A stretch of DNA of 58,566 bases. Source: Promethearchaeota archaeon. Lineage in GTDB: Archaea > Asgardarchaeota > Lokiarchaeia > Sigyniarchaeales > SOKP01. The position numbers and the translations under genes were made by a program. Positions within the stretch are counted from its first letter, which is position 1. Every line of letters starts with the position of its first letter. The notes beneath the pieces are model-generated. The model was not told the DNA's origin. It saw nothing but the letters and a program-made list of their open reading frames with translations, and searched no databases. The stretch covers positions 1-58,566 of the forward strand of contig SDNY01000005.1 in NCBI GenBank assembly GCA_004524535.1. Direction: 5' to 3'. Shown one piece after another: positions 1-56,912 of the stretch.

Positions 1-259
<259 letters not shown>

Positions 260-344
260 TAAATTCAAAAACATTTATTTATAGAATTTATTTTCTGGGA
301 AACTCTTATTAAACTTTTCTTTTCTTTTTTCCAAAATATAAGCC

Positions 345-447
345 GGGCCTGTAGATCAGTGGAAGATATGGAATATTTTCTTGGGTCATATCCAAAATCG
401 CTTGACTTGCATTCAAGAGGTCACGGGTTCAATTCCCGTCAGGTCCA
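345..447 (+). tRNA. tRNA-Ala(TGC) with a D-arm intron
   Basis: Acceptor stem GGGCCTG/CAGGTCC, anticodon arm CTTGA-CTTGCAT-TCAAG (anticodon TGC, 408-410) and T arm ACGGG-TTCAATT-CCCGT are clear. The gene is 103 nt; removing 31 nt (366-396) gives a standard 72-nt tRNA with D arm GATC-AGTGGAA-GATC. The junction shows a relaxed bulge-helix-bulge: TGGA pairs with TCCA, with 3-nt bulges AGA and AAA and an inner TATG/CATA helix. The intron is therefore in the 3' strand of the D stem, a non-canonical site. CCA is not encoded. Position next to 16S is typical for archaeal tRNA-Ala. Confidence 0.93.
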
Positions 448-804: not shown

Positions 805-2047
805 TTATTTAGCAGATACTATTTTTATGATATCGTTGTGTTTTAATTCATAATTTTCACCTAATCTTTTCTTAGTTCGAGCATCAATACCGAAAATAAA
901 ATGCTTTGCTAAGTCTGAATGAATTTTCTCTCTAACAAAATCTCTTAATAGAGTCCCCTTCTTTACTAAAAAAACATCTGGTAAAACGTTGTTATTATTA
1001 TCTGAATAATCATTAATATCAGAAACGGGATAAACACAAATTAGATTTGAAATCTGAAAAGTTGCATAATTGAGAACTTGTTGTACCCCTGTTCCATTAA
1101 AAACTTTAAGTAAATCTGTTTTTATTTTATTTAGCATATCCAATTCTTTTGAATTTAATTTTTGTGGATTTCTAATTTGAAAATCGATGGATCCAGGGAT
1201 GTAATGTATAACTTTTTCATCATGATATTTTCTTAAAAAATGCTCTGCTAATGCACTGCAAGGTATAATAACGCCTTTATATTTCTTTTTTAACTCATTT
1301 AAATTATTTAAGCTAATTTCTTTATCAATTTTGTTTGCTATAATAAGAATTGGTTTGGAAATTTCTCTTAAATTTTTTGAAAATTTAAAAATTTCATTAT
1401 CTGTCCATTTTGAAGGTAATTTATTCTCCAATTTCGAATTTTTTAAAGTCAAAATAATTTGTTGTTTATTAATTTTCAGACCTGAGAGTCTTTTATGTAG
1501 ATTTTCAACTATTTTAATTTTATCTCGAAAAGATTTTGAAAATTTATTCCAATCTTCTCTTTCGAGTATATCTTTAAACCAGAAATTTATTTCATTTTCT
1601 AAAAATAAGATATCATCATAAGGATCATTTTTACCAGCACTATTTCTCTTTCCTGTCTTATCGAGTGTTCCTGTCGTATCGACAATATGTAAAAGCACAT
1701 CAGCTCTACTTAAATCATTTAGAAATTTGTTCCCTAAGCCTTTTCCCTTATGAGCATCAGGGACTAAACCTGCAACATCTAGTAAATTTATAGGAATAAA
1801 ACGATATCCATTAATACAATTGGAATTTTTTGGATTATCATCAACATTTAATTCCTTACAAACACAATTTTCTTTTGCATACGCAATACCTTTATTTGCT
1901 TCAATTGTAGTGAAAGGCAATTCACTAACTTTAGCGTGAGTTAAGCACGCAGCGTTTAAAAAAGTAGACTTGCCAGAACCTAGCCTTTTGATAAAATAAT
2001 TTACCAAAACTTGGCTTTCCGACAATTCCAAAAATTATATGACTCAT
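805..2047 (-). CDS. YchF/Obg-type GTPase with TGS domain, gene interrupted by a 31-nt intron
   Basis: Archaeal TRAFAC-class GTPase of the YchF/Obg group, which acts on ribosomes or nucleotides. The contiguous frame lacks the start of the G domain. The true start is ATG at 2045-2047, giving MSHIIFGIVGKPS; the frame then breaks, and removing 1980-2010 restores GKPSSGKST (P-loop). Coding exons are 2011-2047 and 805-1979, giving 403 residues. Further motifs: DVAGL (G3), NKID (G4), a long helical insert in the middle, and a C-terminal TGS domain of about 70 residues (VFLVKKGTLLRDFV onward). It is a pseudogene only if the insertion is not spliced; the rest of the frame is intact and conserved-looking, which argues for a functional gene. 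Confidence 0.88.
1980..2010 (-). other. candidate protein-coding (mRNA) intron, BHB type
   Basis: 31 nt inside the P-loop codons of the YchF-type gene. On the coding strand the structure is complete: outer exon helix GTCGGAA/TTCTGGC (7 bp with two G-U), central helix AGCC/GGCT (4 bp), 3-nt bulges AAG and AGG, and an inner 10-bp hairpin TTTTGGTAAA/TTTATCAAAA closed by TTAT. Cutting after the second base of each bulge, as the archaeal splicing endonuclease does, joins CCAA to GTTCT and restores the reading frame. This is the hBHBh' geometry of archaeal tRNA introns. Confidence 0.85.
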
Positions 2048-2157: not shown

Positions 2158-4014
2158 TCAAGAAATTTTTTTGGTTTTCTCTTGTTTTGAATATAATTCG
2201 TTAATATAATCTCTTAATTCGATAAATTTTTCATTATTTTCTATTTCATTCTCATTTTTTATTTCATAATTGACGAAATTAGATTCATCCTCTTGAAAAT
2301 GATTTTCCAAATTATCTGATTGAATTTCTTTTCTTTTCAGGTGATCTTGCTTTTCTAGCGTAAATTTTTCTTTAAAATTATTAAATTGCTTATTAGAATT
2401 TCTATAAAAGCGATTAATAATCTTACTTAGACTTTTAATAAGCTTTCTTTTCTTCTCTTCCCTTCCTATTTTTTTTTTCCCATACTCTTTAAGGTTTGTT
2501 AATGCTAAATCATTATTTTTATTGATTTCTGAAGTATCTAAATACTCTCTTTCAATTAATGGTACTGATAATAAAAAAGGTTTTTTAATTGAATTTACTC
2601 GAACAATACATTGTCCTTCTTCAAGAATTGATAAATAATCCTGATTTTCTACCTCAAGATTTAATAATTCACACAAAAACTCTTTTTGCATATGAGTTTT
2701 AAAAACAATTAATCCCCCACAATTTGCCAGAATTTCTTTGCTAATATCTGGACGTGTAGCTACGGATACTAAACATTCACCTGTTCCCCTTTGCAATAGT
2801 GCAATATCTTCTAAATAAGTTGTTAATTTGGTTTGTCTGGTTAAATTTTTTGGTGCAAAGTATTGAACATCTTCAATAATAGTGATGTGTTTAATGCCTT
2901 TAAAATTATAAGCCCCGTGCGTTATATTTCTATCCCATAAATATTTTAAAATCATATTTAGAAAAAATAAGGCATCTGCTTTTTCTCCTCCTAATCTGAT
3001 AATAGAACTTAAATCTATTAAAATATTTCTTTCGAATAGATCATGAACTCTTATTTTATTTTCTGTATCGAACAAAGCTTTTAAAGAACCTAGGGAAAAT
3101 CTTCTTATTCTATTTCTAATGCTAATTAACGTTTGACTTAACATTGGAATTTCATTTTGATATATATCTGAATATGCTTTACAAAAACGGTAGAATCCTT
3201 TCCAATTCTGTAATTTTTTATTTTGACAGACTTTCGTTAAGATTTCAACTAGGACTTTCTGCATTTGGGGTGAAAATTGGGAAGATTCACTCTCATCTAA
3301 AAATTTTCCACTTTTTAAGATATCAAAAATCCTTTCCGCATGAACCTCTGGAATTGTCCCTTCTGGGTTAAATATATTTATTGAGAAATTCTCTCCTGGT
3401 CTAATTATTAATAGATTTTTTATTTTCTTTTGAAGAAAATGATACTCTCCTTTGAATTCAACAAGTAAAAAAGGAATATTATAGCGTTCTGTGAAGTTTA
3501 ACAAAAAATTTTGTATAAAATTACTTTTACCTGTGCCTGTGGCCCCACACACAAATATATGTTTCTCAAGATCCTTAATTGATAAAAAAAATGAGTTTTT
3601 TTTTTTTCTACCTTTTAGATATCTACCTAATTTAATCATCCCTTTTTTTGAACCTTGATATGAAGGAATTTCTAAATTTATAATATTTTCATCTGCTACA
3701 AGGAGAGGTAACGAAAAAAGCATTAACGAAATGCTAAAAAATGTGACTGAAAGATTAAATAAGATTATAAGAATGAGATAATCGTTAAAAGAATTTAAAA
3801 TGACATTCGAAGAATTTGTAGTGAAAAAGGACAAGGCTGCAAAAAGAAATATTGTTGAAATTATTAAGATTATAATTATGAATTTCTTAGTTTTAAGTAA
3901 AGAATAACCCTCCCTCTTATAAATATAAAAAATAATATTAATTATAAATGAAATTATACTTAAAATTAAAAAGAGTGTAATACAAAAGTCATAATTAATC
4001 TCCATTATATCCAT
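2158..4014 (-). CDS. membrane-anchored HerA/TraG-like P-loop ATPase
   Basis: 618 residues. Three transmembrane segments lie at about residues 10-32, 45-65 and 78-106. A RecA-fold ATPase follows with Walker A GATGTGKS near residue 158, Walker B TIIEDVQYF near 370, and SVATRPD near 412, resembling the sensor motif of HerA/VirB4/TraG-type motors. The last ~130 residues are charged and probably disordered. N-terminal membrane anchors plus this ATPase core are typical of DNA- or protein-translocating hexamers such as coupling proteins. No conjugation genes lie nearby, so the substrate is unknown. The neighbouring argH is divergent, 48 nt away. Confidence 0.72.
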   Translation of the reverse strand: MDIMEINYDFCITLFLILSIISFIINIIFYIYKREGYSLLKTKKFIIIILIISTIFLFAALSFFTTNSSNVILNSFNDYLILIILFNLSVTFFSISLMLFSLPLLVADENIINLEIPSYQGSKKGMIKLGRYLKGRKKKNSFFLSIKDLEKHIFVCGATGTGKSNFIQNFLLNFTERYNIPFLLVEFKGEYHFLQKKIKNLLIIRPGENFSINIFNPEGTIPEVHAERIFDILKSGKFLDESESSQFSPQMQKVLVEILTKVCQNKKLQNWKGFYRFCKAYSDIYQNEIPMLSQTLISIRNRIRRFSLGSLKALFDTENKIRVHDLFERNILIDLSSIIRLGGEKADALFFLNMILKYLWDRNITHGAYNFKGIKHITIIEDVQYFAPKNLTRQTKLTTYLEDIALLQRGTGECLVSVATRPDISKEILANCGGLIVFKTHMQKEFLCELLNLEVENQDYLSILEEGQCIVRVNSIKKPFLLSVPLIEREYLDTSEINKNNDLALTNLKEYGKKKIGREEKKRKLIKSLSKIINRFYRNSNKQFNNFKEKFTLEKQDHLKRKEIQSDNLENHFQEDESNFVNYEIKNENEIENNEKFIELRDYINELYSKQEKTKKIS

Positions 4015-53383: not shown

Positions 53384-56912
<3,529 letters not shown>

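Follow-up and report, generated by a model that had tools for sequence, protein, structure and literature searches.

The stretch of DNA analysed here (the window: positions 1 to 58,566 of contig SDNY01000005.1, assembly GCA_004524535.1) comes from a Promethearchaeota archaeon of the Lokiarchaeia and carries, on its minus strand, a gene for a GTPase of the YGR210/YchF family whose P-loop codons are interrupted by an insert at 1980-2010. The genome to which the window belongs (G000; 3.66 Mb in 198 contigs, completeness 99%) contains one copy of this gene. An initial annotation had given exactly these coordinates and the length of 31 nt, leaving the strand unstated, and had read the insert as a bulge-helix-bulge (BHB) intron in a protein-coding gene. 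The parts of the gene and of its predicted RNA structure are as follows (a caret marks a junction).

805..1979 (-): exon 2 of the GTPase gene, 1175 nt including the stop codon; PF08438 and TGS domains
1972..1978 (-): outer helix, 3' strand TTCTGGC (exon 2, P-loop codons), in the fold
1979..1981 (-): 3' bulge AGG, in the fold; predicted cut 1980/1979
1980..2010 (-): BHB intron, 31 nt, GTTTTGGTAAATTATTTTATCAAAAGGCTAG; canonical hBHBh' fold
1982..1985 (-): central helix, 3' strand GGCT (intron), in the fold
1986..2009 (-): inner hairpin, 10 bp with a TTAT loop, in the fold
2010..2012 (-): 5' bulge AAG, open in the fold; predicted cut 2011/2010, placed by the known BHB rule and by the restored frame
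2011..2047 (-): exon 1, 37 nt, ATG at 2047-2045; joined in frame to exon 2 as MSHIIFGIVGKP^S
2013..2016 (-): central helix, 5' strand AGCC (exon 1), present in the minimum-energy fold
2017..2023 (-): outer helix, 5' strand GTCGGAA (exon 1), in the fold

The GTPase intron and its relatives

For the RNA of 1965-2030, the minus strand has a folding energy of -24.2 kcal/mol (z = -5.6), a stability equalled by none of 200 shuffled sequences, while the plus strand of the same segment reaches only -9.1 kcal/mol (z = -2.2). Every element proposed in the initial annotation is found in this fold, namely the 7-bp outer helix, the AGCC/GGCT central helix, the bulges AAG and AGG, and the 10-bp hairpin with its TTAT loop; the outer helix is lengthened by two further pairs. 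The two 3-nt bulges around the 4-bp helix span both exon-intron junctions. Cuts after the second base of each bulge restore GIVGKPSSGKSTFLNA, and once the intron is taken out at AA^G and AG^G, the sequence reads MSHIIFGIVGKPSSGKSTFLNA..., an open frame of 403 amino acids with the start and the GKPSSGKST motif that had been predicted. Without splicing, the frame from the ATG ends 26 codons beyond the junction, and the downstream frame misses the first part of the P-loop. Against NF007171/PRK09602, 'YchF-related putative GTPase', the spliced protein reaches 480 bits (cut-off 387), and it also has matches to PF08438 (YGR210-like), MMR_HSR1, and TGS; the G1 motif, the YGR210-like G4 domain, and the TGS domain are all present in it. 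By these matches the predicted product is a member of the YGR210 branch of the Obg/YchF GTPase family, a refinement of the YchF-type assignment made earlier; its nearest named relatives are from metagenome-assembled genomes (MAGs) of Lokiarchaeota. Sites with an inner helix of at least 8 bp, an outer helix of at least 7 bp, and at least two central G-C pairs occur only four times in 821 kb of the genome (both strands), and the GTPase intron is the sole one whose removal mends a broken gene, in agreement with the view that chance was an unlikely explanation.

The GTPase gene was found in 39 of 58 genomes in a first search and in 53 of 79 within the order. Within the genus, the gene occurs in G000, G001, and G002, and all three have it interrupted at one common site by inserts of 31, 31, and 32 nt, respectively, while in genus g6 all four genomes with the gene have a different insert (45, 47, 47, and 45 nt) located 5 nt upstream. 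GKPSSGKST is restored by every splice in both groups. The remaining genomes of the order with matches reaching the N-terminus are uninterrupted at the P-loop; the match in G047 begins only at residue 16. The comparison of homologs and the covariation that the initial annotation had named as checks thus both came out in its favor: comparison of G000 with G002 shows two double and two one-sided pair-preserving changes in the inner helix, one one-sided pair-preserving change in the central helix, and the loss of one outer-helix pair. The helices of G000 and G001 are identical. A single fixed frameshift is hard to reconcile with the difference between 31 and 32 nt inside the genus and, more generally, introns of these lengths at one site, together with the compensatory changes, point to splicing and speak against frameshifting, assembly error, and decay. 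The ratio of nonsynonymous to synonymous substitution rates (dN/dS) is ~0.1 for the spliced frame in both the G000-G001 and G000-G002 comparisons, by which measure purifying selection acts on the predicted spliced frame.

In the protein tree, genera without the intron fall between the two intron-bearing groups, and a constraint holding all seven intron-bearing sequences together fits worse (approximately unbiased test, p-AU 0.029). The intervening intron-free genera and the poorer constrained tree favor two gains at neighboring sites over a single gain, which we reject given that site, length, and sequence also differ. An origin by tandem duplication of the P-loop exon was rejected for now, as the resemblance between the G000 intron and exon 2 (P ~0.012) is not repeated in G001 or G002. 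A search of plasmids for similar DNA found none.

Upstream of the GTPase gene lies a HerA/FtsK-like ATPase gene (window 2158-4014, minus strand). Similar open reading frames adjoin the GTPase gene in genera g8 and g2, and the pair may be a conserved neighborhood.

Further coding introns and their patchy distribution

A scan of stretches amounting to ~1.78 Mb (49%) of G000 demanded a 4-bp central helix, two 3-nt bulges, an inner helix, and the mending of a broken frame upon removal. Besides the GTPase gene, nine conserved genes are mended by removing BHB introns of 29-32 nt, and Pfam or NCBIfam domains span each of the nine junctions. One of these, the gene for RNA polymerase A', is present in single copy yet interrupted.

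L159:6524-6555 (-): methylmalonyl-CoA mutase B12 subunit (mcmC), 32 nt, PGL^DGHDRG
L209:17016-17044 (-): ubiquitin E2, 29 nt, IWHP^NF
L202:3640-3669 (+): CdhC (cdhC), 30 nt, GCV^LCQSFAPTH
L146:3517-3548 (+): class I aldolase (fba), 32 nt, VGV^DMGRN
L147:309-338 (-): RNA polymerase A' (rpoA1), 30 nt, GHFGH^IELARP
L215:9431-9460 (-): homolog of elongation factor 2 (EF-2), 30 nt, TDSD^DEEQERG
L135:15418-15447 (-): ArgG (argG), 30 nt, SGGL^DTS
L135:3057-3086 (-): CdhD (cdhD), 30 nt
L196:5940-5968 (-): MoxR (moxR), 29 nt

Weaker candidates are the following.

L212:17255-17285 (-): Zn-ribbon protein, 31 nt, CPE^C; Pfam match below the cut-off
L305:4955-4985 (+): Fe-S-type protein, 31 nt
L141:11656-11685 (+): protein without a Pfam match, 30 nt
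L202 near 3785 (+): second break in cdhC; clear BHB boundaries not found
L271 near 2087 (-): break in the P-loop of pyrG; clear BHB boundaries not found

As a control of bulge geometry, frame-restoring sites with an inner helix of at least 8 bp and at least one central G-C pair were counted. In the 29-32-nt range the true geometry gave 12 sites and five decoy geometries gave 2, 3, 8, 2, and 1, while in the 33-60-nt range there was no difference (30 versus 25-30). Several high-scoring BHB sites were judged to be chance occurrences: after reading of the proteins, those in the RFC large subunit (in-frame, 54 nt), at the dapF-lysA boundary, and at the starts of a creatininase-like and a GNAT gene, and likewise one at the end of L18e.

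The distribution of these introns among relatives is patchy. The mcmC intron is absent from the congener G004, the protein of which is 98% identical, and a 26-nt intron with compensatory changes occupies the same site in G033 (genus g8). The E2 gene is split at this site in G000 only, its ortholog in G004 (96% identical) being intact. Breaks at or adjoining the GHFGH position interrupt rpoA1 in G000, G018, and G012. In G003 and G033 the gene is 30 nt longer, an in-frame excess that contains stops, and most of the other genomes compared have it uninterrupted; the BHB was read from G000, and the breaks in the other four genomes are placed approximately. Among Asgard homologs of EF-2, BHB introns of 30-33 nt occur at five sites in seven genomes.

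TDSD^D: G000 and G018
TD^SD: G001 and G012
TAH^I (P-loop): G023
DHG^K (P-loop): G007
DTPGH: G053, from another family of the class

The intron-bearing EF-2 homologs of genomes other than G000 (L298, L300, L303, L288, L291, and L299) are interrupted in GTP-binding motifs, namely the P-loop, TDSD, and DTPGH. Breaks are most easily recognized in strongly conserved motifs, and detection may account in part for the location of intron sites there. From these comparisons, intron gain and loss look frequent in the lineage, with a population apparently turning over across Lokiarchaeia and beyond; the introns may have spread by repeated gain or by recombination between relatives, and losses on several occasions are possible too.

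G007 and G015 each have another EF-2 paralog (L301 and L302) whose P-loop is disrupted and contains an in-frame stop, and a search of it for a BHB of strict geometry found none. Paralogous B12-binding mutase subunits of G027, G009, and G022 (L258, L259, and L260) lose alignment at the motif equivalent to DGHDRG and possibly contain introns. Within the window, ARAGORN annotates a tRNA gene at 344-447 (plus strand) as tRNA-Met(CAT); its sequence looks closer to tRNA-Ala(TGC) with an insert of ~31 nt in the D arm, a possible non-canonical tRNA intron. The end of a 16S rRNA (1-257, plus strand) and a complete 23S rRNA (53392-56908, plus strand; 3517 nt against a model of 2987 positions) lie ~53 kb apart, such that there is no single operon here.

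Splicing enzymes, proposed mechanism, and alternatives

An endonuclease and a ligase are both encoded in G000, as two paralogous tRNA_int_endo genes (alpha and beta types) and one RtcB gene. One endonuclease subunit type retains the Y/H/K region, while the other, as read from its orthologs in G001 and G033, lacks the catalytic histidine by eye, and the two types fit an (alpha-beta)2 endonuclease, as far as sequence can indicate. Endonucleases of this kind have a broader substrate range (PMC12397907), and the title of Yoshinari 2006 (cited in PMC6379350) ties the type to archaeal pre-mRNA splicing. These genes, together with the same-site introns of two sister species, support the initial annotation's interpretation of a spliced intron.

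We are highly confident that the 31 nt constitute a tRNA-type BHB intron in a pre-mRNA, belonging to a wider system that takes in at least ten genes. This reading draws on sequence, structure, the restoration of frame and motif, covariation, the enzyme genes, occurrence in multiple genes, and patchy distribution. In vivo, the GTPase transcript would fold into the hBHBh' helix, the tRNA-splicing endonuclease would cleave both 3-nt bulges after the second base, and RtcB would ligate the exons, whereupon the mended mRNA would be translated into a GTPase with an intact P-loop, GKPSSGKST. The 29-32-nt BHB introns of the other conserved genes, at least nine in number, would be removed likewise by what are presumably the same enzymes. 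Three observations weigh against such a system: the decoy geometry (4,2) yields 8 sites against the 12 of the true geometry and is the weak point of the control; the central helix is missing from the minimum-energy fold of the isolated region in mcmC, E2, cdhC, rpoA1, argG, and the Fe-S-type candidate; and the outer helices are often short among the introns other than that of the GTPase.

Among the alternatives, the BHB could act as a cleavage-based regulatory switch, in which the endonuclease cuts the mRNA and the efficiency of splicing sets the amount of GTPase. We regard this as very improbable, in that religation restores frame and motif exactly in at least ten genes, a single-copy RNA polymerase A' cannot dispense with splicing, and patchy presence among congeners speaks against a conserved regulatory role. 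Translational bypassing, as in T4 gene 60 and the byp elements of yeast mitochondria, or programmed frameshifting would have ribosomes hop or shift across an insert in RNA that is kept whole. An intact protein would result in this case too, and a hairpin is present; however, inserts of 29, 30, 31, and 32 nt fall in each of the three phases, only one of 13 inserts has matching take-off and landing codons near its junction (and that of the GTPase gene has none), and the two-bulge geometry and endonuclease cut rule are left unexplained, making this account even less credible than the switch. Least probable of all is an assembly error or a decaying gene, for although a single frameshift is commonplace in a MAG such as this one, three separately assembled genomes have diverged inserts at the same site with pairing kept, dN/dS is ~0.1, there is no second copy of the GTPase gene, and like inserts occur in nine more genes, including that of single-copy RNA polymerase A'.

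Returning to the reading as a spliced BHB intron, a wider proposal is that Lokiarchaeia have genome-wide, spliceosome-free mRNA splicing. The housekeeping genes of each genome would then contain dozens of ~30-nt BHB introns, which would have entered conserved motifs repeatedly, would pass from species to species through reverse splicing or recombination, and would have been overlooked as gene callers read them as frameshifts. We lean only slightly towards this proposal, in which repeated gain or exchange of introns would be required.

Significance and comparison with known systems

Lokiarchaea belong to the archaeal group closest to eukaryotes. Pre-mRNA splicing in archaea has so far been treated as a curiosity of one gene, cbf5, whose BHB intron was reportedly described by Watanabe in 2002. 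If the proposed system exists, the mRNAs for RNA polymerase, an elongation factor homolog, acetyl-CoA synthase, and other core proteins would need splicing by the tRNA machinery, coupling core gene expression to the tRNA-splicing endonuclease. Short mRNA introns would then be gained and lost in relatives of eukaryotes without a spliceosome, and Asgard gene catalogues would hold false frameshifts and broken proteins. The initial annotation had called such introns rare and best known from cbf5, which describes the literature but not this genome, where they are many. In the open-access literature searched, cbf5 was the only confirmed archaeal coding BHB intron (PMC2738675) and no coding introns were found in Asgard archaea; as most subscription papers and preprints lay outside the search, priority is not certain. 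According to a 2020 study, a single additional BHB intron was on record, that of cbf5 mRNA (PMC7714728). Introns in tRNA genes are abundant in Asgard archaea (PMC11291895).

The cbf5 intron of Sulfolobales and Desulfurococcales (PMC2738675, Yokobori 2009) and those of Lokiarchaeota share lineage-specific gain and loss as well as splicing by the tRNA machinery, which in the latter is predicted. Unlike the cbf5 case, the present introns belong to a Lokiarchaeota host and to other genes, at least ten in one genome, vary in presence between congeners, and occupy two neighboring sites in one P-loop. Archaeal tRNA introns, whether hBHBh' or relaxed (hBH/HBh'), are alike in structure, predicted cut positions, and enzymes, but here the host RNA is an mRNA and the lengths are narrow, at 29-32 nt in G000. 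In Haloferax, the HVO_1309 mRNA (PMC7714728) likewise contains a BHB that the endonuclease cleaves, both in vivo and in vitro; its BHB sites, however, lie in the 5' untranslated region and leave the coding sequence uninterrupted. Finally, the rRNA circularization reported in archaea, including Asgard archaea (PMC12918454), resembles the proposed mechanism in that a BHB is cut by EndA and ligated by RtcB, but differs in that rRNA ends are joined into circles and no intron is removed from a coding sequence.
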